The notes under the pieces are model-generated. The model was not told the origin of the DNA. It was given only the letters and a program-made list of their open reading frames with translations, and did no database searches. From a virus: a stretch of 24,470 nt of DNA. The stretch is taken from IMG/VR virus record IMGVR_UViG_3300009155_000251, positions 1 through 24,470 of that record; one strand, given 5' to 3'. This document shows positions 970 to 23,095 of the stretch, piece after piece. The translations under genes were made by a program, and so were the position numbers. Position 1 is the first letter of the stretch, and each line of letters opens with the position of its first letter.

Positions 970-988
970 TATGTTCATTGGAAATAGC

Positions 989-1252
989 ATGAAAGAAAGA
1001 CTTTTAAGATCAATAATCAAAGAAGAGCTAAAAAGGCTTACTGAATTTGCTCCAGGCAAGTTTTCAAATATTTCTTTGGATGCATCTGAGTCAGACAAAT
1101 CAATGTCTGATGATGAAGTGTCACAAGCTTTAGATAATGCACTTAAGGGACGACACGCTTCTGGTCGTCCTTTTTCGTCTCAACTTCGATCATCCTTGAA
1201 TGAAAGCGCATTGCCAAATTTCGATTCAGACTTTGGAAAAATTTTTATATGA
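989..1252 (+). pseudogene. ADP-ribosyltransferase paralogue 1, N-terminal part (frameshifted)
   Basis: This frame holds the N-terminal tag and linker of the first ART copy. I start at ATG 989 because MKERLLRSIIKEELKRLTE aligns with the start of the intact copy at 1871; ATG 971 in the same frame is possible but has no better ribosome site. Residues 1-19 are a basic/hydrophobic helix ending in L-T-E, the T4 gp21-type cleavage consensus. The linker LKGRHASGRPFSS is identical to that of copy 2. The frame stops at 1252 shortly after DFGK. The homologous protein continues one base over in the frame ending at 1862. Removing one base in the A5T5 run at 1237-1246 joins the two, giving DFGKILYE against DYGKLLAA in copy 2. 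This is a real indel, a sequencing error, or (less likely) programmed +1 frameshifting. Confidence 0.6.
1145..1175 (+). terminator. terminator-like hairpin inside ART copy 1
   Basis: Arms AAGGGACGAC (1145-1154) and GTCGTCCTTT (1164-1173) can pair over ten positions with one G-T wobble, around a 9-base loop, and the right arm runs into TTTTT (1171-1175). This has the form of a Rho-independent terminator but lies inside the coding frame. The same hairpin is present without a base change in copy 2. Shown by sequence; function is inferred. Confidence 0.45.
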
Positions 1253-1862
1253 AATTGACAGTCGTATTCCCCGCATGAGGAAATATGACTTTCCTTATCT
1301 TTACTTATATCAAGACCGCAAAATTTCTATTGAAGAATTCTCAGTGATTAAGTCAATCTTACTTTTTACTAAATCTAGCGTTGCAACAATTAGAAATCCA
1401 GAATTGTTTAATTCAAATCAAGCACGAATCACTGGAAGAGATGTGTTTAAAGACGCCCTCGTTCCCACTAAAAATGATTATCAAATTGCAAATAAGATTT
1501 TGACAAATTTGGCAATATCAAAAAACTATTCTAAAGTAGAGACTATTTTTAGAGGAATCGTTATTGATCAATCAGTTGCTGATAATCTTAGACCTTTTAT
1601 TGAATTTAATAACTGGCCAATAAGCTCATTTACTTTAAATGAATCTATTGCATGGGGCTTTATAAGTAGCAAATTTCTTCCAGACAAAACAGCAGTTTTA
1701 ATCGAAATTAATAATCCATCACATGGATCAGATATAACACGATTCAGTTATTATCAAAATGAGAATGAAGTAATTTTAGGAAAAAAACTCCTAATCAAAG
1801 ATGTGATAAAAAATAACAATTCTTATAAAAGCATACGCATTGAATGCGATGTTATTCCTTAG
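1200..1862 (+). pseudogene. ADP-ribosyltransferase paralogue 1, catalytic part (frameshifted)
   Basis: This frame carries the catalytic domain of the first ART copy. It aligns along its length with the intact copy at 1871-2740. Motifs in order are the Arg motif (TIFRG), the S-T-S-like motif (ISSFTLNES), a strand AVLIEINNPSHGSDI, and the ExE motif (NENEVILGKK). These are the three parts of the R-S-ExE active site of arginine-type mono-ADP-ribosyltransferases. The ATG at 1200 has no ribosome site and lies in a region that aligns only in the other frame, so I do not regard it as a true start; homology in this frame begins near 1240. The stop TAG at 1860-1862 is part of TTAGGAGCAAAG, which also gives the ribosome site of copy 2. 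As written, the copy would yield no full protein. Confidence 0.65.
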
Positions 1863-1870
1863 GAGCAAAG

Positions 1871-2740
1871 ATGAAAGAAAAACTTTTAAGATCAATAATC
1901 AGAGAAGAGCTAAAAAGGCTTACTGAATTTGCTCCAGGCAAGTTTGGTAATGTAGAAATCAAAAACGAAATTATGTCTGATGACGAAGTATCTCGTGCAT
2001 TAGATAATGCACTTAAGGGACGACACGCTTCTGGTCGTCCTTTTTCGTCTCAATTTCGATCATCACTTCATGAAAATACAGAGCAAAGTGCAAGTGTTGA
2101 TTATGGAAAGCTTTTGGCTGCAATGACACGATATGTGATGTTTGAAGAAGAAGAAATTGACGTGTTTTCTAACTTTAAAAGAGTTGATGATTTGTTTAAA
2201 CACGGCCAAATAACAAATGATGAAATGGACATCATCATATCAATTATGTTATTCACGGGTGGAAATGTCGCCACAGTTAGAGACACAGACTTATACTCAC
2301 CTGCAAAAGCTGCTCACTCATCAATTAATCTTTTTAGAAAAAGATATCAAGTTACTCTAAAAAGTTATCAAACTGCAAATAAGATCATGACTGATTTGGC
2401 AATGTCAAAAAATTATTTTGGAACCTCTAAAATTTATAGAGGACTAACTCTTGATGGTGACGTTTTCAATTCTTTAAAAGAAAACATTGAGTTCAATAAT
2501 CATGCAATAAGTTCATTTACAACTGATAAAGAAGTTGCAATAGGATTTTCAAAAAAGTTTTTACGTGACCCATTTAAACCAGTTTTAATTGTCATTGAAA
2601 ATCCAACGCATGGATCAGAAATTTCAAAGTTTAGTCTTTATAAAGAAGAAAGTGAAGTGGTCTTAGGAAAAAAAATAAAAATTCAAAAAATCCTTTCTCG
2701 TGATGGCGCAAAATGGTTATTTTGTGATATCATTCCTTAG
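1871..2740 (+). CDS. ADP-ribosyltransferase, likely capsid-packaged effector (T4 Alt-like logic)
   Basis: ATG 1871 follows AGGAGCAAAG; 289 residues. Residues 1-19 form a basic amphipathic segment ending in L-T-E, matching the (L/I)-x-E site used by T4-type prohead proteases. Residues about 36-70 form a polar linker. The catalytic domain (about 75-289) has the ART signature: Arg190 in IYRG, Ser214-Ser215 in AISSFT, and Glu260-x-Glu262 in EESEVVLGKK. This R-S-ExE pattern is that of arginine-specific mono-ADP-ribosyltransferases such as T4 Alt and ModA and bacterial exotoxins. The expected reaction is transfer of ADP-ribose from NAD+ to a host protein. Inference: the tag sends it into the prohead, the protease trims it, and it is injected with the DNA. 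The target is unknown. An internal terminator-like hairpin (2015-2045) may limit expression. It could also act in the producing cell like ModA. Confidence 0.72.
   Translation: MKEKLLRSIIREELKRLTEFAPGKFGNVEIKNEIMSDDEVSRALDNALKGRHASGRPFSSQFRSSLHENTEQSASVDYGKLLAAMTRYVMFEEEEIDVFSNFKRVDDLFKHGQITNDEMDIIISIMLFTGGNVATVRDTDLYSPAKAAHSSINLFRKRYQVTLKSYQTANKIMTDLAMSKNYFGTSKIYRGLTLDGDVFNSLKENIEFNNHAISSFTTDKEVAIGFSKKFLRDPFKPVLIVIENPTHGSEISKFSLYKEESEVVLGKKIKIQKILSRDGAKWLFCDIIP
2015..2045 (+). terminator. terminator-like hairpin inside ART copy 2
   Basis: Same structure and sequence as the hairpin at 1145-1175: AAGGGACGAC (2015-2024), 9-base loop, GTCGTCC (2034-2040), then TTTTT (2041-2045). It lies inside the 54-base block identical between the two copies. 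It encodes LKGRHASGRPF in both. Confidence 0.45.
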
Positions 2741-4884: not shown

Positions 4885-7188
4885 TTGTCAATAATCAGGC
4901 TGGGAAAAGATAATTTCGAAAGATTTTCTGTCATTGCGCGTCCGACAAGAACATTTTCATCTTCGTCAGGCGGGGTGACGGGTTCTGTCCCAGTCTTTGC
5001 AAGAACTTCAACTGTTGAAAAAGACGTTGATAAAGCGACATTTGTAGATTCAGAGTTTTCAACTGATGATCCTGAATCAATTAGAGAAGCAGCTAAAGCG
5101 TCTGATTCTACAAATATCTCTTCAGAAATGAGTCAATATATTGATTCAGTAAATGCTCTTACAAGATCTGAACTCAAAAATAAGAAAGTTGAGTCGATTA
5201 GATTTGAGCCACCATTTACTGTAAATTCAGATTTTCTTAGAAAATCAAATGTGAGAACAAATCTATTTCAATACTATAGAGGGAAAAATAGATACGCTCA
5301 CTGGAATTTTGCAAATTATCAATGCTTGAATTTTTTTACATCGTCAACTGTTCCTTCGGACAGCGTCATCATTTATGACAATCAAGTTCAAGCTGGGAAC
5401 ACAAGAGGTCCTTATACACCAGACAGCGCATTCAGCTTAGAATGCTATATCAATCCACGATATCAAAATGAGATAAATCAAGAGTATAAGCCAGGAACAA
5501 TTTATCATCTATCATCAACTTTTGCATTATCACTTTGCTCTGGATCATCAACTGATGGAAGCGGAAGAACTGACAAGTTTAAATTGATGATTCAGTTATC
5601 ATCATCAGCTGAGGTTCAGCCTTCAGCAGCAACTCCTGGTAATCTTATATTCACATCAAGTGACAATTGTCTCAACTTGAATTCATGGCACCATGTCGTT
5701 GTTAGATGGTCACCTGATTATGACAACGGCTCAGGATCATTTGTAGTTGATGGAACTGAGGTTGGTTATTTCCACACAACAGCAAGTTCAATCTCTCCAA
5801 TATTCAATGGAGTCAATCCAGATCAAGATGTTCTTTTTATAGGAAATTATTTTGATGGACAAAATGTTGCTGGGAATGGAACAGCAGAGCTTTTGTCAAA
5901 TCCTACATCGCCAACGCCAATCAGATCTTTTTCATACCCTCTAAATGCTGAGGTTCATGAAATGAGGATTTGGGATAGTTTCATTGATGACTCAATGATT
6001 GCTTCATATATGACTGGGGGACTTGGCTCAACTGATTATACAAATCTTCTTTTTTATTTGCCAGTTCTTTTTGTTAAAGAATCACCTGAAAGAGATGTTT
6101 TTGTTACTCCATTTGAGAAAACTACTCAATCAACAGTTGATGCACACAACGTTTCAATGTCATTTGGAGTGGGTGGTCACGAAGTAAATGTTGAAAACTT
6201 TGTAAGAGAGTTTGTTCAAGGAAATTATCCTGTGCTCTACAGCTTGACAGGATCTGAGATTACTTGGAACATCACTGACTTTAAGGAAGCAAACGAGCTT
6301 CTATATGCGACTGGGTCATTCATCAAGCGTAATTTGACTATTCTTCCATGCGATAATGGAATCATGAGACCAAATTACTCGTTGTTGCTGAGTGGGTCAA
6401 TGACAGACTATCAGAACGTTGACTCTCCTCTATCCAAATTTACTAATGATTTTGGTAATCTGCTATTGGATTCTATTTCATTAAATGATCTGTTACCGAC
6501 ATCATCTCTCTACCCTGGTTTAATACCTTCTGACTCTGGTGTTCCTTCATCTATATCTGAATTACTTGAAGGTTCAATTCCTGAGTCGCTGAATAGCATT
6601 TCAACCTCAGGTGATGTCCTTTCAATATTTCAAAGACAGCGTGATAACACTTCAAACTCAGTTGTTTTTTTTGACACAAGCAATCTATTTTATGGTGGAA
6701 GGGTTCATCCAACAAGCTTTAGCGTGACTGATACAAACTTGACAGGATCAGGAGGCAAAGTTCAAATTACTTTGTGTGACAATGGTCAAGGCGGTCTTTA
6801 TAGAGCAGATTCGCTAACTCCTCACCCAAAGTGGGCAGGTGTTGGAACAATTCTTTATGATGAAGGCATTGCAGTCGTTAAATCTCCTCTTATTTTTATG
6901 TTTGGAAAAGATCAATTTGATATAACACTAAGAGGAGAAAGAAAAGTTCATGTGATGGAGATAGCAATACCATGCCCAGCTGGTATGGTGAACTCAAGCT
7001 CTAATCCAACTTTTATGGCGCTAACTGCTAGTGATGACCTAAATGAAACATCAGTGGGTCCTGTTATCATAACAGGTTTGAATCTTCATGATGATAACAT
7101 GAACGTAGTTGCAAGAGTTGCTCTCGCCCAGCCGATTATAAAAAGAGAAGAAGATAGATATCTTTTTAGAGTAAAGATGGATTGGTGA
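4885..7188 (+). CDS. LamG/concanavalin-like virion protein, 767 aa
   Basis: Start is TTG 4885, chosen for the strong AAGGAG at 4874-4879; the first in-frame ATG is far inside. Residues about 173-380 look like a laminin-G/concanavalin-like fold: SAFSLECYINPR, LNSWHHVVVRWSP, a VDGTEVGYF hairpin, DVLFIGNYFDG and a closing AEVHEMRIWDSFIDDSMI. This order (strand, WHHVVVRW, DGxxVG, IG, ExRIWD) is typical of LamG_3-type sugar-binding domains. Residues about 695-767 repeat the SSNPTF domain of the previous protein, ending in RVKMDW. No catalytic residues are evident. The most likely role is a baseplate or tail-tip adhesin that binds host surface glycans, or a decoration protein. The next gene starts 3 bases after its stop. 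Confidence 0.65.
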   Translation: MSIIRLGKDNFERFSVIARPTRTFSSSSGGVTGSVPVFARTSTVEKDVDKATFVDSEFSTDDPESIREAAKASDSTNISSEMSQYIDSVNALTRSELKNKKVESIRFEPPFTVNSDFLRKSNVRTNLFQYYRGKNRYAHWNFANYQCLNFFTSSTVPSDSVIIYDNQVQAGNTRGPYTPDSAFSLECYINPRYQNEINQEYKPGTIYHLSSTFALSLCSGSSTDGSGRTDKFKLMIQLSSSAEVQPSAATPGNLIFTSSDNCLNLNSWHHVVVRWSPDYDNGSGSFVVDGTEVGYFHTTASSISPIFNGVNPDQDVLFIGNYFDGQNVAGNGTAELLSNPTSPTPIRSFSYPLNAEVHEMRIWDSFIDDSMIASYMTGGLGSTDYTNLLFYLPVLFVKESPERDVFVTPFEKTTQSTVDAHNVSMSFGVGGHEVNVENFVREFVQGNYPVLYSLTGSEITWNITDFKEANELLYATGSFIKRNLTILPCDNGIMRPNYSLLLSGSMTDYQNVDSPLSKFTNDFGNLLLDSISLNDLLPTSSLYPGLIPSDSGVPSSISELLEGSIPESLNSISTSGDVLSIFQRQRDNTSNSVVFFDTSNLFYGGRVHPTSFSVTDTNLTGSGGKVQITLCDNGQGGLYRADSLTPHPKWAGVGTILYDEGIAVVKSPLIFMFGKDQFDITLRGERKVHVMEIAIPCPAGMVNSSSNPTFMALTASDDLNETSVGPVIITGLNLHDDNMNVVARVALAQPIIKREEDRYLFRVKMDW

Positions 7189-15995: not shown

Positions 15996-16821
15996 CCACA
16001 ATAAGAAGAGAAATGTAGGTATTATCTACGAACAGCTGCTTCTTCGGGCTTCTGAGGCGTTAATTGATAACGACGTTGATACTGCTAAGAAGTGTGCAAG
16101 TATTATTAAGAAACACTATAGACCAGGAACTGAGATTTACAAAGAGTTCAGGCTTTTCCAGGCTCTTTTGAACACAACGGTTCAGACAGAGTCATTGGGT
16201 TTGAGACTAATTGCTGAGGCTCGCCGTGGATCACAAATAACATCAACTTTTCATTTGAATAATGAAAAGTCAACTCTTATAAGAGACATCAATAAAGTTA
16301 TAAATGACGATAATTTTTTTAATCGACCAATCAAAGAGTATCGACTTTATGCAACAATTCAAACTCTTTTGAATGACTGGAGAAATGACGATACATCAGA
16401 TCTTGGAAAAGTCGTCGATTATGAAAATAAATTGCTTGAATGGATGAAGTCTGAAAAAGAGGAAAAGCAGACTCTGAATGAACTTAAGTCCGAAGATATT
16501 AACAATCTTACGGTTAAGATTATGCGAGAAAAATTTGAAAAGAAGTGGGAAGGTAAGCTTAGCGAAACACAAAGATCTTTAATACGAGACTTTGTGAATG
16601 GTGACATTGACAAGAACACACTTAATAGCATTAAAAATAGAGTCGTGAGAGGTCTTGACAGACTAAAGGAATCAACTGATAGCAAAGTTTTGCTTGAAAA
16701 GGTTGATCTTGTTAAGAAAAATGTAATCAAAACGTCTTCTGAAGTCTTTGATGAGACGTCAATTTCAAAGTTTATGCAGCTGACTTCGCTGTATGAAGAG
16801 CTGGAGTCTAAAGATGAGTGA
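15988..16821 (+). CDS. helical head-module protein, possible prohead core component, 277 aa
   Basis: Of three consecutive ATG codons (15982, 15985, 15988) I chose the last, because AGGG (15977-15980) is then 7 bases away; the start overlaps the portal stop. The protein is almost all alpha-helical and highly charged: NVGIIYEQLLLRASEALI, EFRLFQALLNTTV, EYRLYATIQTLLNDWR, and long Lys/Glu helices. It lies between portal and protease, where T4 encodes the core proteins gp67 and gp68, so a prohead core role is the best guess from position and composition. There is no homology that I can prove. Its end overlaps the protease start by 8 bases. Confidence 0.65.
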   Translation: MSNHNKKRNVGIIYEQLLLRASEALIDNDVDTAKKCASIIKKHYRPGTEIYKEFRLFQALLNTTVQTESLGLRLIAEARRGSQITSTFHLNNEKSTLIRDINKVINDDNFFNRPIKEYRLYATIQTLLNDWRNDDTSDLGKVVDYENKLLEWMKSEKEEKQTLNELKSEDINNLTVKIMREKFEKKWEGKLSETQRSLIRDFVNGDIDKNTLNSIKNRVVRGLDRLKESTDSKVLLEKVDLVKKNVIKTSSEVFDETSISKFMQLTSLYEELESKDE

Positions 16822-17425
16822 TTCTAAATTAAAGCTTTTAACTGAGTGGTTGCCATTTTCATATGACAAGAAAATGATAAAGGAAGAGATGGAGCAGAAT
16901 GGTGGCCGTCTCATTATGAAAGGAATTCTTCAAAAAGCAGACACACTAAACCAAAATGGTCGTGTCTATCCTCGTGACATTCTTGAACGAGAAGTTCGTA
17001 ATTATCAGAAATTTATTCGTGAAAATAGAGCTTTAGGTGAGTGTGACCACCCAGATTCTTCAGTTGTTGAATTAAAAAAGGTTAGTCATATTATTCGTGA
17101 AGCTTACATGGATGGAAACGTTTGTTATGGAGTAGTAGAAATTCTTGACACTCCAACTGGCAAAATACTAAAAAGCCTTGTTGAGGCTGGTGTTACTCTT
17201 GGAATTTCTTCACGCGGAGTTGGATCTACTAAAAAGTTAGGCGAGCATCAAATAGTTCAGGATGACTTCCAATTGATTTGCTGGGACTTTGTTTCTGAGC
17301 CTTCAACACCCGGTGCCTTTATGATGAAGGAAGGTAGAGAAATTAGCAAATCAGAATTATCAAAGGTGTTTAATCGTAGTGATAAAATTGATAGGATATT
17401 CAATAACATCTTGGACTGGAAATGA
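16814..17425 (+). CDS. prohead maturation protease (T4 gp21-like)
   Basis: I chose ATG 16814 (203 residues), with GGAG at 16803-16806; an upstream ATG 16793 has no ribosome site. The catalytic His79 is in GECDHPD and the catalytic Ser is Ser132 or Ser133 in LGISSRGVGS, the order seen in gp21-type and related herpesvirus-like prohead proteases. Conserved surroundings include LIMKGILQKADTLNQNGRVYP near the start and ICWDFVSEPSTPGAFM near the end. Its own N-terminus has Leu9-Thr10-Glu11, an (L/I)-x-E site, consistent with self-cleavage. It is expected to act inside the prohead on scaffold, capsid protein and packaged proteins before DNA entry. The next gene overlaps by ATGA. Confidence 0.9.
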   Translation: MSDSKLKLLTEWLPFSYDKKMIKEEMEQNGGRLIMKGILQKADTLNQNGRVYPRDILEREVRNYQKFIRENRALGECDHPDSSVVELKKVSHIIREAYMDGNVCYGVVEILDTPTGKILKSLVEAGVTLGISSRGVGSTKKLGEHQIVQDDFQLICWDFVSEPSTPGAFMMKEGREISKSELSKVFNRSDKIDRIFNNILDWK

Positions 17426-18207: not shown

Positions 18208-18215
18208 CATAAATA
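18208..18215 (+). promoter_or_regulatory. possible T4-type late promoter element CATAAATA
   Basis: CATAAATA sits 11 bases before ATG 18226. T4 late promoters use TATAAATA and cyanophage S-PM2 a NATAAATA form. The same 8-mer occurs at 24393-24400 before the last gene. Against it, a start point 6-7 bases downstream would fall at or after the AGGAGA ribosome site, so this copy may not work as a promoter for 18226. Confidence 0.25.
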
Positions 18216-18773: not shown

Positions 18774-19352
18774 ATGAAAAGATCACTACGAGAAGCTAAT
18801 AATCCAAATTACGATTCTCGTAGTGATCTTGGTTATGGAACTGCGTCTGGACGTGACAACCCACGCCAGTCTCAAGGTTCATGGCCTTATATTGAAATTG
18901 TAAAAGACGATGTAGATGATGAGGATCAGCTTGAGTCTGAAAGTGATGTTGAGACTCAAGTTGCAATTGGGAATAAAGCTGGTCAAGGACATATTCGTTG
19001 GGACTCATACGCTGATCGTGCAGCTGATAACAGAAGGTTTGTTGGTGCTGATTTTAGAATGAGTGAACAAACGACTGGTCGAGGAATTTCGCCTATGCCT
19101 GATCTTTATAAGAACAAGCAAGGCGTCCTTGGAGTTGGTGCAGACGGTCCTTCAATTAGACCTGCACCTGCAAAAATTTCTTTAGCTGGATCAAAATCTG
19201 GTTGGTCTGAGCCTCTTCCTTTATCTGATGCTGGATCAATGGGTCACACATATCACATTGAAGACATCCCGACTGGTGATGAACGCACAATGAAACGTTT
19301 AAAACGTCTAATAAAGGCTATTCATTTTCAGCAGAATAATGAAAAAGAGTAA
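18774..19352 (+). CDS. head-module protein with LRE cleavage motif, 192 aa
   Basis: ATG 18774 lies 2 bases after the previous stop and has no clear Shine-Dalgarno site, so it may depend on coupling. The protein starts MKRSLREA: Leu5-Arg6-Glu7 followed by Ala is a minimal prohead-protease site like that of the capsid protein (LRE, then Ala). The rest is polar, rich in Asp, Gly and Ser (VKDDVDDEDQLESESDVE), and ends in a basic helix TMKRLKRLIKAIHF. A 16-bp perfect inverted repeat (18779-18830) covers codons 2-19. Its place directly before the scaffold gene suggests a prohead core or internal protein. Not recognised. Confidence 0.65.
   Translation: MKRSLREANNPNYDSRSDLGYGTASGRDNPRQSQGSWPYIEIVKDDVDDEDQLESESDVETQVAIGNKAGQGHIRWDSYADRAADNRRFVGADFRMSEQTTGRGISPMPDLYKNKQGVLGVGADGPSIRPAPAKISLAGSKSGWSEPLPLSDAGSMGHTYHIEDIPTGDERTMKRLKRLIKAIHFQQNNEKE
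18779..18830 (+). promoter_or_regulatory. 16-bp perfect inverted repeat at a gene start
   Basis: Left arm AAGATCACTACGAGAA (18779-18794) and right arm TTCTCGTAGTGATCTT (18815-18830) are exact reverse complements, separated by 20 bases. The repeat begins 3 bases after the ATG of the gene at 18774. In RNA it would form a long, stable hairpin within the ribosome footprint. No T-run follows, so it is not a simple terminator. Confidence 0.7.
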
Positions 19353-19390: not shown

Positions 19391-21124
19391 ATGTCAAATC
19401 TATATCAAGAAGCACTCGCAGACGCAAAGTCTCTAAGAGAGCTTGCTGAGAAGAATGCCAGAAACAAGATTATTGAATCTATTAGCCCACAGATTAGAAA
19501 GATGATTGAGAAGCAAATGCTTTCTGAGGCTGATGATGAGATTCCAGAGGTTGATAAAGCTGAGGATGTTCCTAATCTTGACCTTGACCCTTTGCCAGAT
19601 GATGCAATGGCAGGTGATATGGGCGCCGCCCCCGACATGATGCCTCCAGCAATGCCTGGAGCAAATCCTAACGCTTCAGACGCAGGTGAAGAGGTTAACC
19701 AAACAGTCACAACTAAGACTGCATCAGGAACTGAAGTAAAGATTAACGTAAAGGTTGATAAGCGCGGTGAGGCCGCAGCTACAGCTTCTGCTGATGTTGC
19801 AGATGGCGATGATGTTGACGTTGATCTTAATGAAGAGTCTCTTCGTTCATTGTCAGATTTAATTTTTGGACAAAAGGCAAAGCCTAAGCAGCGCGCATCT
19901 TTGGGTGTCATTCGTAGGCAAATGGAGTCTCTCAATAAGATTTCAAGAGGGCTTCCACTAAATGAAAGAAATAATTTTAGGGCTGCCTATGCAATTATGA
20001 TAAAAAATGTAGGTAATTTCAGAAATCATCTTATATCTAATGGTATTGGTTCTGAAACTAAGAAAAAGTTCAACAGTATTGTTAAGGAGATTAAAGTAAT
20101 GTCATCAAGCGCAAGATTCCGTCGCCTACTTGAGGAGATGGAAAGTAAGAAGGCGCTTCGTAATGAAGCAAAGTTGGTTTTTGAACCTGCTGATCTTGAA
20201 GGTCTTAATGATGAAGACTTCAAGGCAAAGTTGCAGGGAATGACCTTTGGTGTTGAGTTTGATGAAGGTGACGAGGCTGGTGGTGATACCCCAGTTGATG
20301 TTGCTGACACAGGTGCTGGCGCTCCTTCTGCCCCACCCGCTCCACCAGCTCCTGCTGCACCTCCAATGGCAGAGGATGACGATGAAGAGCTTGACGAAAT
20401 GTATGATGAAGATGAGGAAGACGAGGGTATGTCACTTGACGAGGAAGATGAAGAACTCGACGAGAATGATACCGTTTTCAACGTCAATGAATCAATGCTT
20501 CGTAAAGAACTCCGTCGTATCAAGGAGTCAAAGAAAGGAATTAAGAATGCCATGGCCGACCAGTTTGGTGGTGGCAAAGAAGACGGCGATCCTTGGCTCG
20601 ATGGTGAAGTCACCACCGAGGGTGCTGAGGAAGACGGTGAAACTCTCGATGAGGTTGAAGCCGAGCAAATCGCTGAAAAAGCTTTGAAGGTTGCAAAGAA
20701 AGCGACAAGTGTTGCTCAAAATGAGCGTGAGTCCCGTATTAAGGAGGCACGCATTAATCGTGGCCTCAAGGGAAAACTCGACGAGTCGCAGAAGATGATT
20801 GCAACACTACGTGAGCAGCTGGAGGATGTAAATCTATTCAACGCTAAGCTTCTATATGTTAATAAGCTTATGCAGAATCGTGATCTTACACCACGTCAGC
20901 AGCGCTCAATTGTGGAATCACTCGATCGTGCCCAGTCAGTTAGTGAGGCAAAGCTTCTCTATAACAGCTTGACTGAGTCCCTGAAGGTGAAGACAGGAAA
21001 CATAAACGAGGGTCGCATTATTGGATCGTCATCCAGATCAACGAGATCTGGCAGCGCACCTGCTGCCATGAATGAATCCGTTGAGGTTGACCGCTGGGCA
21101 ATCCTCGCAGGTATTAAAAAGTAA
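19391..21124 (+). CDS. prohead scaffold protein (T4 gp22-like)
   Basis: 577 residues; AGGAAAA lies upstream of ATG. Domains: an N-terminal helix with L-R-E, L-A-E and Leu44-Ser45-Glu46 sites; a Pro/Ala-rich acidic linker; a helical block (residues about 150-260); a second Ala/Pro linker; a strongly acidic stretch (about 330-365, Asp/Glu runs); and a C-terminal helical block with NLFNAKLLYVNKLMQNRDLT and SVSEAKLLYNSLTESL, the pattern I associate with gp22-type scaffolds. More than fifteen (L/I)-x-E triplets are spread along the chain, fitting a scaffold that is cut to peptides by the protease. It lies directly before the capsid gene, as in T4, but is about twice as long as T4 gp22 (269 residues). 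Confidence 0.85.
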   Translation: MSNLYQEALADAKSLRELAEKNARNKIIESISPQIRKMIEKQMLSEADDEIPEVDKAEDVPNLDLDPLPDDAMAGDMGAAPDMMPPAMPGANPNASDAGEEVNQTVTTKTASGTEVKINVKVDKRGEAAATASADVADGDDVDVDLNEESLRSLSDLIFGQKAKPKQRASLGVIRRQMESLNKISRGLPLNERNNFRAAYAIMIKNVGNFRNHLISNGIGSETKKKFNSIVKEIKVMSSSARFRRLLEEMESKKALRNEAKLVFEPADLEGLNDEDFKAKLQGMTFGVEFDEGDEAGGDTPVDVADTGAGAPSAPPAPPAPAAPPMAEDDDEELDEMYDEDEEDEGMSLDEEDEELDENDTVFNVNESMLRKELRRIKESKKGIKNAMADQFGGGKEDGDPWLDGEVTTEGAEEDGETLDEVEAEQIAEKALKVAKKATSVAQNERESRIKEARINRGLKGKLDESQKMIATLREQLEDVNLFNAKLLYVNKLMQNRDLTPRQQRSIVESLDRAQSVSEAKLLYNSLTESLKVKTGNINEGRIIGSSSRSTRSGSAPAAMNESVEVDRWAILAGIKK

Positions 21125-21158: not shown

Positions 21159-23042
21159 ATGTCTAAGACTTTTACACTAGATCAGCTCGCCGAGGGAATC
21201 CGCGGGCGTGACGTTTCGGCGGAGAATAACCGCCTTGTTGAGAAGTGGGGCCGCACAGGCCTCCTTCGTGGACTCGAAGGCACTGGTCGTGAGAACATGG
21301 CACGCCTCCTTGAGAACCAGACCTCTAACCTTCTTCGTGAGGCTAACTCTCTCTCAGCTGGTGGTGGTTCGCTCTCTTCAAGTGGTGATATCCGCGGTTT
21401 CTCAAACATTGCATTCCCAATTGTTCGCCGCGTTTTCGGTGGACTCGTGGCCAATGAGCTTGTCTCAATCCAGCCAATGAGCCTCCCATCTGGTCTCCTC
21501 TTCTACCTCGATTACACCTACGGCTCAAACGTTGGTGGAAACGCTGGTGTTGATCTCGACTCAGCAGCAACTAAGTCAGTCTATACTGCTGGCCAGTCAA
21601 TCTATAACAACCCAGTTGGTAAGGGCATCCAGTCCGGTTCGCTCGCAACTGGTGGTATGTATGACTTGGGTGGTATGGGTTATAGCCGCGTTCACGGTTA
21701 CACCGCCGTAACAATGACAGCATCAGGCGCATTTGGAGGCTCAGGCGCCTGGGCATCAACCAAGTATGCTTTTGCGACTGGCACCGACGGTCGTCTTCTT
21801 GGATTTGACCCTTCTCTTACATCTCTTATTGAGGATGGAACAGCTGGTGCTGCGACTGCACAGTTCAAGTTTGGTATTGTTGCTCTTGGCGCAATCTCAA
21901 GCTCAGCTGATCAGAGCCTTGCAAAGACCTTTGGTCTCTTCCCAACAACAACATATGCCAATGCTGCAGCCTGGGGTGAGAGCTTCCAGGGTGGAACTGG
22001 CGTTCTCAACCTTCGTCGTTTGAACCAGATTGGTAGTTGGGATAATACTGCAAAGACCTTTACCCCATCAGTTCTTTCAGGTACTCACCTCCTTGTTGTT
22101 CTTACAGGAACAATGACCACCGACGCCGCCAGCGCAATGTCACTCAGCTACCCACAGAGCGCAGCTCTTGATGTTGAGAGCTCAACTGGTTCAACTGTAA
22201 CAATCCCAGTGTTTGAGTCAAACTTTGGTGTATCACCATCGCCAGTCATTCCTGAGATTGACATCAAGATTGAGTCAATCGCTGTTACAGCAACAACCCG
22301 CAAGCTCCGCGCTCGCTGGTCACCAGAGCTCGCACAGGATCTTAACGCTTACCACAGCATTGATGCTGAGGTTGAGCTCACCCAGATCCTTTCCGAGACA
22401 ATCGCACTCGAGCTTGATCGTGAAATCCTTAACGATCTTCTCGTCAGCGCATCTGGCGCCAACTACTTCTGGAGCCGCGCTCCAGGCCGCTTTGTCAACA
22501 GAACCTCCGGCACAGAAGTTGGTCGTAACAGCATTGGCGGAAACGCTGCTCCTGGTCCTAACTTCACTGGTACAGTCCGTGAGTGGTACGAGACCCTCAC
22601 CGAGACCATCATCGACGTTGGTAACGAGATCCACCGCAAGACCCTCCGCGGTTCTGCAAACTTCATCGTTGTCGGCCCAGACGTTGCAACAATCCTCGAG
22701 GCTTCAACCTACTACCGTCCAAGCTACAGCATCGACGGATCAGGCCAGGTTGGCGCCCCATTCTCAATCGGCGCTGAGAAGGTCGGTACACTCAGCAACC
22801 GCTTCACCGTCTACAAGGATCCTTACTTCCCACGTAACAAGATCCTTGTTGGATTCAAGGGCGGAAGCTATCTTGAGACTGGATACGTCTATGCTCCATA
22901 CGTTCCACTAATCGTAACTCCAACCATCTTTGCTCCAGAGGATTTCACTCCTCGTAAGGGCGTGATGACCCGTTACGGTAAGAAGATGGTCCGTTCGGAC
23001 TTCTACGGAACCGTAACCGTCCTCGACCTCAACATCATCTGA
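21159..23042 (+). CDS. major capsid protein (T4 gp23-like)
   Basis: 627 residues; GGAG lies 5 bases before the ATG. The N-terminal propeptide ends at Leu59-Arg60-Glu61 followed by ANSLSAGG, close to the T4 gp23 cleavage after Glu65. After it come the gp23-like FPIVRRVFGGLVANELVSIQ and PMSLPSGLLFYLDYTYG. The C-terminal part (YRPSYSIDGSGQ, NRFTVYKDPYFPRNKILVGF, YAPYVPLIVTP, KGVMTRYGKKMV) is also of this type. The central Gly/Ala/Thr-rich region may be the variable inserted domain. The protein forms the HK97-fold shell after protease trimming. Base use differs from neighbours: many C-ending codons and higher G+C, most clearly in the second half, as expected for a very highly expressed gene. A strong terminator follows. 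Confidence 0.93.
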   Translation: MSKTFTLDQLAEGIRGRDVSAENNRLVEKWGRTGLLRGLEGTGRENMARLLENQTSNLLREANSLSAGGGSLSSSGDIRGFSNIAFPIVRRVFGGLVANELVSIQPMSLPSGLLFYLDYTYGSNVGGNAGVDLDSAATKSVYTAGQSIYNNPVGKGIQSGSLATGGMYDLGGMGYSRVHGYTAVTMTASGAFGGSGAWASTKYAFATGTDGRLLGFDPSLTSLIEDGTAGAATAQFKFGIVALGAISSSADQSLAKTFGLFPTTTYANAAAWGESFQGGTGVLNLRRLNQIGSWDNTAKTFTPSVLSGTHLLVVLTGTMTTDAASAMSLSYPQSAALDVESSTGSTVTIPVFESNFGVSPSPVIPEIDIKIESIAVTATTRKLRARWSPELAQDLNAYHSIDAEVELTQILSETIALELDREILNDLLVSASGANYFWSRAPGRFVNRTSGTEVGRNSIGGNAAPGPNFTGTVREWYETLTETIIDVGNEIHRKTLRGSANFIVVGPDVATILEASTYYRPSYSIDGSGQVGAPFSIGAEKVGTLSNRFTVYKDPYFPRNKILVGFKGGSYLETGYVYAPYVPLIVTPTIFAPEDFTPRKGVMTRYGKKMVRSDFYGTVTVLDLNII

Positions 23043-23062: not shown

Positions 23063-23095
23063 AAAAAGGGATTGCTCATGAGCAATCCCTTTTTT
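23063..23095 (+). terminator. strong Rho-independent terminator after major capsid gene
   Basis: GGGATTGCTC pairs perfectly with GAGCAATCCC around a short AT centre, flanked by AAAAA on the left and TTTTTT on the right. It lies about 20 bases after the capsid stop. This is the clearest terminator in the window, and being nearly symmetrical it could act in both directions. It separates the capsid transcript from the gene at 23136. Confidence 0.92.

Follow-up and report, generated by a model that had tools for sequence, protein, structure and literature searches.

In bacteriophage T4, mRNA structures at the starts of the genes e, soc, 49 and I-TevI sequester the ribosome site and lower translation, and in the case of e and I-TevI the late promoter removes one arm of the inhibitory helix (PMC3014915). 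Two other arrangements are described from the same phage: in genes 38 and 25 a helping hairpin lies between the Shine-Dalgarno sequence and the AUG of a split ribosome site, and the autoregulatory operator of gp43 is a hairpin that precedes the AUG, its conserved loop being read by the protein (PMC3014915).

The inverted repeat considered here lies in the 5' coding region of gene P0001 of the virus record IMGVR_UViG_3300009155_000251, positions 1 to 24,470 of which were analysed (this whole 24.5 kb stretch is hereafter called the window). Its likeness to the structures of e, soc, 49 and I-TevI is that of a cis-acting mRNA stem at the start of a phage gene, translation being lowered in T4 and expected to be lowered for P0001. 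In those T4 genes, however, the Shine-Dalgarno sequence and/or the AUG is part of the helix, whereas P0001 has no Shine-Dalgarno sequence, both arms of its repeat are intracoding and its AUG is unpaired. Because of the position of the arms and the unpaired AUG, the P0001 hairpin is not a member of that group, even if we think, by analogy, that it may work like it. The T4-type late promoter sequence ATAAATA was found on neither strand between 18358 and 19361, the nearest plus-strand match being at 18209, and this consensus may not be the one used by the present phage. Like genes 38 and 25, P0001 belongs to a T4-like phage and has a hairpin around the start of translation, but their hairpin lies between the Shine-Dalgarno sequence and the AUG, and that of P0001 downstream of the AUG. 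The gp43 operator is comparable as a hairpin governing translation; it differs in lying upstream of the AUG and in its conserved loop, whereas stem and loop sequences vary in P0001. In the open-access literature, no description was found of a stem in a phage head gene that is conserved in fold and free in sequence.

The window encodes a T4-type terminase, portal, prohead protease and major capsid protein, and P0001 has the protease block on one side and the presumed scaffold on the other (Table 1). The homologues of P0001 (designated below by the L numbers of their loci) come from uncultured viral contigs, and nearly all that were checked have the gene order of the window. The gene junction is tight: where the gap was measurable in the homologues, it is -8 to +16 nt, the start of P0001 adjoining or overlapping the upstream gene. 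No relatives were detected by tblastn (E 0.01) among 50,697 records of isolated phages, nor in the bacterial/archaeal genome collection, and the two nearest isolates (by terminase) have different small genes at the place of P0001. The structure model of the protein is mostly of low confidence, with a C-terminal helix, and at a mean pLDDT of 51 is too poor for a structure search.

Most homologues start with a short basic peptide that has [LIVF]xE and then A at its end. The N-terminal LREAN of P0001 recurs at residues 59-63 of the major capsid protein, and is a candidate site for the protease shared by the two proteins. In T4, the protease strips N-terminal propeptides off the capsid protein and the internal proteins; it also cuts the core proteins, and the copy numbers of these vary widely (PMC5694885). 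From its sequence, we infer that P0001 is a substrate of the prohead protease; it is probably a capsid-interior protein. In another part of the window (971-2740), tandem paralogous proteins with a common N-terminal LLRSII.EELKRLTEFAPGKF segment are encoded. By eye, they have features recalling phage ADP-ribosyltransferases (Pfam gave no match), and the first copy is split in two overlapping frames (971-1252 and 1200-1862), which apparently meet at an A/T-rich run at about 1245.

Table 1. Coordinates of the inverted repeat, of its host gene P0001 and of neighbouring head genes in the window.
Feature	Position	Strand	Remarks
Hairpin left arm AAGATCACTACGAGAA	18779..18794	+	16 nt; reverse-complements 18815-18830 exactly; covaries in L001
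Hairpin loop	18795..18814	+	20 nt; extra pair 18796-18813 possible past one mismatch
Hairpin right arm TTCTCGTAGTGATCTT	18815..18830	+	16 nt; change of GATCTT to GACTTA in L001 fits change of AGA to AAG in left arm
Host gene P0001	18774..19352	+	192 aa; no Pfam or PHROG family
Upstream gene P0002	18226..18771	+	ends 2 nt before ATG; presumed source of coupled ribosomes
Downstream gene, presumed scaffold/core	19391..21124	+	presumed from position and character; no family match
Major capsid protein, T4 gp23 type	21159..23042	+	phrog_138, E 3e-68
Prohead protease, T4 gp21 type	16793..17425	+	phrog_207, E 4e-52
Candidate prohead-protease cleavage motif LRE/A (slash, putative cut)	18786..18797	+	codons overlap left arm

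The geometry given in the preliminary description was reproduced: all 16 of the 16 pairs between the arms are complementary, P0002 ends with its TAA two bases upstream of ATG 18774, and no clear ribosome site precedes this ATG (Shine-Dalgarno duplex energy +0.1). The peptide labels were nearly right, in that the codons of the left arm read (K)RSLRE, and those of the right arm (D)SRSDL, where YDSRSDL had been given. The left arm begins at +6 (A of the ATG being +1), with the AUG outside the stem, and the additional inner pair extends the stem after a G-A mismatch. The assertion that so long a stem is unlikely by chance was borne out. In 60 first-order Markov sequences with the composition of the window, the longest perfect inverted repeat (loop of at most 60) was of 13 bp, found 0.033 times per window, and by extrapolation a 16-bp repeat is expected about 0.001 times per window. 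The window holds only two perfect inverted repeats of at least 11 bp with a loop of at most 60, at 18779-18830 and 23063-23094, both of 16 bp. As RNA, the segment 18740-18860 folds at -37.3 kcal/mol (z = -4.7).

Searches for known types of element at the hairpin were negative. Rfam gave no match at or above the gathering threshold for the window and five homologous loci. There is no sense-strand U run 3' of the stem, as an intrinsic terminator would have, but GGTTATGG instead, and the hairpin was not in the list of a terminator scan, the rule of which accepts loops of 3-8 only. A minus-strand terminator was rejected, the T-rich flank being present only in the window, L001 and L017 and missing from group B (see below), and so was a programmed frameshift, no slippery heptamer being seen by eye upstream of the stems. 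Matches to the right arm in a DNA pattern scan fell, among those listed, in many unrelated places, and were excluded as evidence.

Several other repeats and stems were seen. The second perfect repeat of the window, a 16+16 palindrome (AAAAAGGGATTGCTCA/TGAGCAATCCCTTTTT), follows the major capsid gene and resembles a terminator on both strands; in L008, L013 and L021, too, this gene is followed by strong stems with short loops. An inverted repeat of 33 nt, 76% complementary, is located at 5033-5122 within the large gene 4885-7188 (Laminin_G_3 domain). In L036, a near-perfect 16-nt inverted repeat (GACCCAAACTCCCATC / GATGGGAGTTTGGGTT) is present at 382-430, 5.6 kb upstream of the P0001 homologue. 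A strong start-proximal stem (ATTATCTAC.AGCAGC / GCTGCT..TGTAGATAAT; z = -5.8) was found at L019:4657-4800 in the homologue of the window's gene 15982, whose own copy is without a stem of this type.

The structure at the start of P0001 exceeds what codon constraint would produce. When scored against synonymous shuffles, this start had the lowest z (-4.7) among 745 coding segments scanned here. Over 24 homologues, the mean z against the same type of shuffle was -3.4 for nt 1-90 and -2.8 for nt 31-120, and about -0.1 to -1.0 further in. Dinucleotide shuffles of 33 homologues gave a mean z of -2.7 at nt 1-99 versus -0.7 at nt 151-249, with z at or below -2 in 21/33 and 6/33 of them, respectively. 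The excess is specific to the start of P0001: the starts of 202 other ORFs from 20 loci had a mean z of -0.3, and because five copies of the target remained in this control list (their stop coordinate was beyond the tolerance), the true contrast is larger. In a census of strong stems over 285 kb, the target region was listed in 12 of the 24 loci, as against 10 hits in the whole 285 kb of shuffled sequence. It should be noted that the homologues are few and related, that stems were compared partly after a search for the best one, and that stem counts depend on the threshold.

Covariation in homologous genes, which the preliminary description had named as a check, was seen in two comparisons. 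The nearest relative, L001 (89% protein identity), retains a perfect 15-bp stem, and differs from the window by two double compensatory pairs (G-C to A-T and A-T to G-C) and by the loss of one end pair. L017 and L036 share another stem, the two copies of which differ by double changes at two pairs, by G-C/G-U exchanges at two others and by the gain of one pair. A third type of stem, here called B (ACGACGCCCG ... CGGGCGTCGT and variants), is placed around the codons for GLGYG in 11 of 14 aligned relatives. In the B-type stem of L018, both 10-nt arms are identical in letters and the loop is different; in L014, residues around the GLGYG codons are changed and the stem is even longer. In the alignment of group B, 82% of the cells are paired, versus 26-38% after sliding, and double changes occur at 5 pairs; compared with shuffles, covariation in this alignment is modest (25/500 for pairs, 32/500 for score). 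A count of G-U versus A-C mismatches in the same group was discarded as confounded by codon position. Both properties by which a selected mRNA structure is recognized, pairing above that of synonymous shuffles and compensatory changes, are thus present at this start.

Paired changes might also arise without selection, if template switching at a quasi-palindrome repeatedly created perfect hairpins as a mutational by-product. Near-perfect stems in varied registers would fit such a process, and the paired changes of L001 could be arm copying. Nevertheless, we regard it as very improbable, considering that the stems persist over large synonymous divergence and with G-U pairs, that synonymous divergence is itself lowered in the hairpin segment (0.40-0.43 vs 0.58), and that comparable stems are rare elsewhere in the same loci.

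In a tree built from the protease and the rest of P0001, in which several deeper nodes are weak, L006 is sister to the window plus L001 (support 100), and the window and L001 are nested among B-type lineages. The window, L006 and L017/L036, all nested in this way, carry different stems; in L006, the B-type right arm pairs with a left arm that is new and close to the start codon, and this stem looks like an intermediate between the B type and the window type. As the stem types differ and that of the window nests among other types, stems appear to have been replaced while a stem was retained, and turnover with retention of some stem is the simplest reading of these sequences. Evolution thus seems to keep the fold of the hairpin at the P0001 start, and not its letters. 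Because stem and loop sequences vary by lineage, a protein binding site with a conserved sequence, a possibility raised earlier for this repeat, is disfavoured.

In distant relatives at about 30% identity (L045, L047, L197 and L205-L207), too, strong stems occur close to the GLGY codons, in some cases with shifted registers. Significant structure was absent from L015, L016 and L021, little was found in L013 and L046, and five of nine distant homologues (L200, L201, L204, L209 and L210) have no stem. About ten homologues in total are without one, and the element is thus dispensable in some lineages. The preliminary description would have counted homologues that keep the peptide and lose the pairing against a role of the stem; L015, L016, L021 and several distant ones are of this kind, most homologues are not.

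The repeat might instead act in DNA, as a cruciform or as a replication, recombination or packaging site. The hairpin DNA strand does fold well (-17.2 kcal/mol), and the minus-strand stems are equally good in the window, L001 and L017. However, L006, L045, L020, L011 and L013 clearly fold better as plus-strand RNA, no conserved sequence is present that a protein could read, and the stems are restricted to the start of the coding sequence in a single gene; a DNA-level element is therefore quite improbable. Over 24 homologues, z was lower for the plus strand than for the minus strand in 16 (Wilcoxon p = 0.018, uncorrected for relatedness), strongly so in L006, L045 and L020, the plus strand folding better than its complement because of G-U pairs. 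This slightly favours an mRNA element over a DNA element, without proving it.

The preliminary description had suggested that the hairpin may block translation unless ribosomes arrive from the upstream gene. This fits the window and its close relatives, where the start is buried and the gene junction tight, and does not fit most homologues. Among 23 genes of the window, P0001 has the start region that costs most to open (19.7 kcal/mol; z = +6.6 vs synonymous shuffles), opening of -15 to +18 being costly because this region includes part of the left arm. The starts of L001, L006, L017, L036, L011 and L047 are, like that of the window, far harder to open than their synonymous shuffles (z about +2.5 to +6.6). 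These seven, with their tight junction and no or weak Shine-Dalgarno sequence, are what would be expected if the hairpin acted only by masking the start, P0001 being read solely by ribosomes from the upstream gene. In contrast, L003, L008, L010, L012 and L014 combine strong stems with ordinary starts (z -0.9 to +0.4 vs shuffles), and in most homologues the stem begins at about +35 to +58. Because most stems thus begin outside the initiating ribosome and leave the start unburied, blocking of initiation is not supported as the general function, and masking as the sole mode of action is unlikely.

Two features are common to the stem-bearing homologues: a strong stem in roughly the first 30 codons, and a start close to the upstream stop. 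Tentatively, and with slightly less than even confidence, we favour an mRNA hairpin that acts in cis from the 5' part of the coding sequence, is maintained by selection across a wide T4-like clade and throttles the translation of P0001. The inverted repeat would fold as a hairpin in the P0001 mRNA in vivo. A stem at +6, as in the window, would hinder initiation; one placed at +35 to +90 would hold up the first elongating ribosome while it is still near the start, so that the next ribosome could not load. A throttle would in this way cover both placements of the stem, and it would have to act through elongation in the many homologues in which the start is not buried beyond chance. The rate of P0001 translation would then be low and limited, most of the ribosomes coming from the end of the upstream gene, and this low rate would set the dose of P0001 relative to the downstream scaffold and capsid genes. 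Lowered translation and stoichiometry are, in our interpretation, the reason for the structure; against it, expression could be lowered more simply, by a weak ribosome site.

Processing sites for RNase III in phage mRNAs are long stems without fixed sequence, and are usually intergenic. The P0001 stem is comparable in being long and without fixed sequence and differs in lying inside a gene, any cutting being putative. Because such a site also needs a stem without fixed sequence, processing or stability control by an RNase III-like enzyme is the main rival of a translational throttle, although we consider it somewhat unlikely. A cut early in the coding region would lower the P0001 message and create a separate 5' end for the messages of scaffold and capsid, and the turnover of the stems would fit, as stem length alone, and neither sequence nor place, needs conserving. 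The stems have 14 to about 22 pairs across the homologues, against an RNase III criterion of about two duplex turns: together with the inner helix, many reach about 20-22 pairs (22 in L003, 21 in the window), but several are of just 14-16 bp (L001, L045 and L047), and a cut inside the coding sequence would destroy P0001's own message.

Gene starts are usually kept clear of mRNA structure. This uncultured T4-like clade appears to do the opposite at one gene, rebuilding a stem that has drifted. It is possible, at a confidence lower than that in the throttle itself, that the hairpin represents a class of mRNA stems that act in cis from within the 5' part of the coding sequence of a phage head gene. 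Such stems, conserved in fold and not in sequence, register or position, would set how much is made of one capsid-interior protein in a head cluster that is transcribed together. If the stem does set protein dose, it would offer a tractable case of how fixed ratios of head proteins are obtained from a shared message. If this is true, a function may be conserved in fold without conserved letters, and alignment-based RNA searches would miss such cases.
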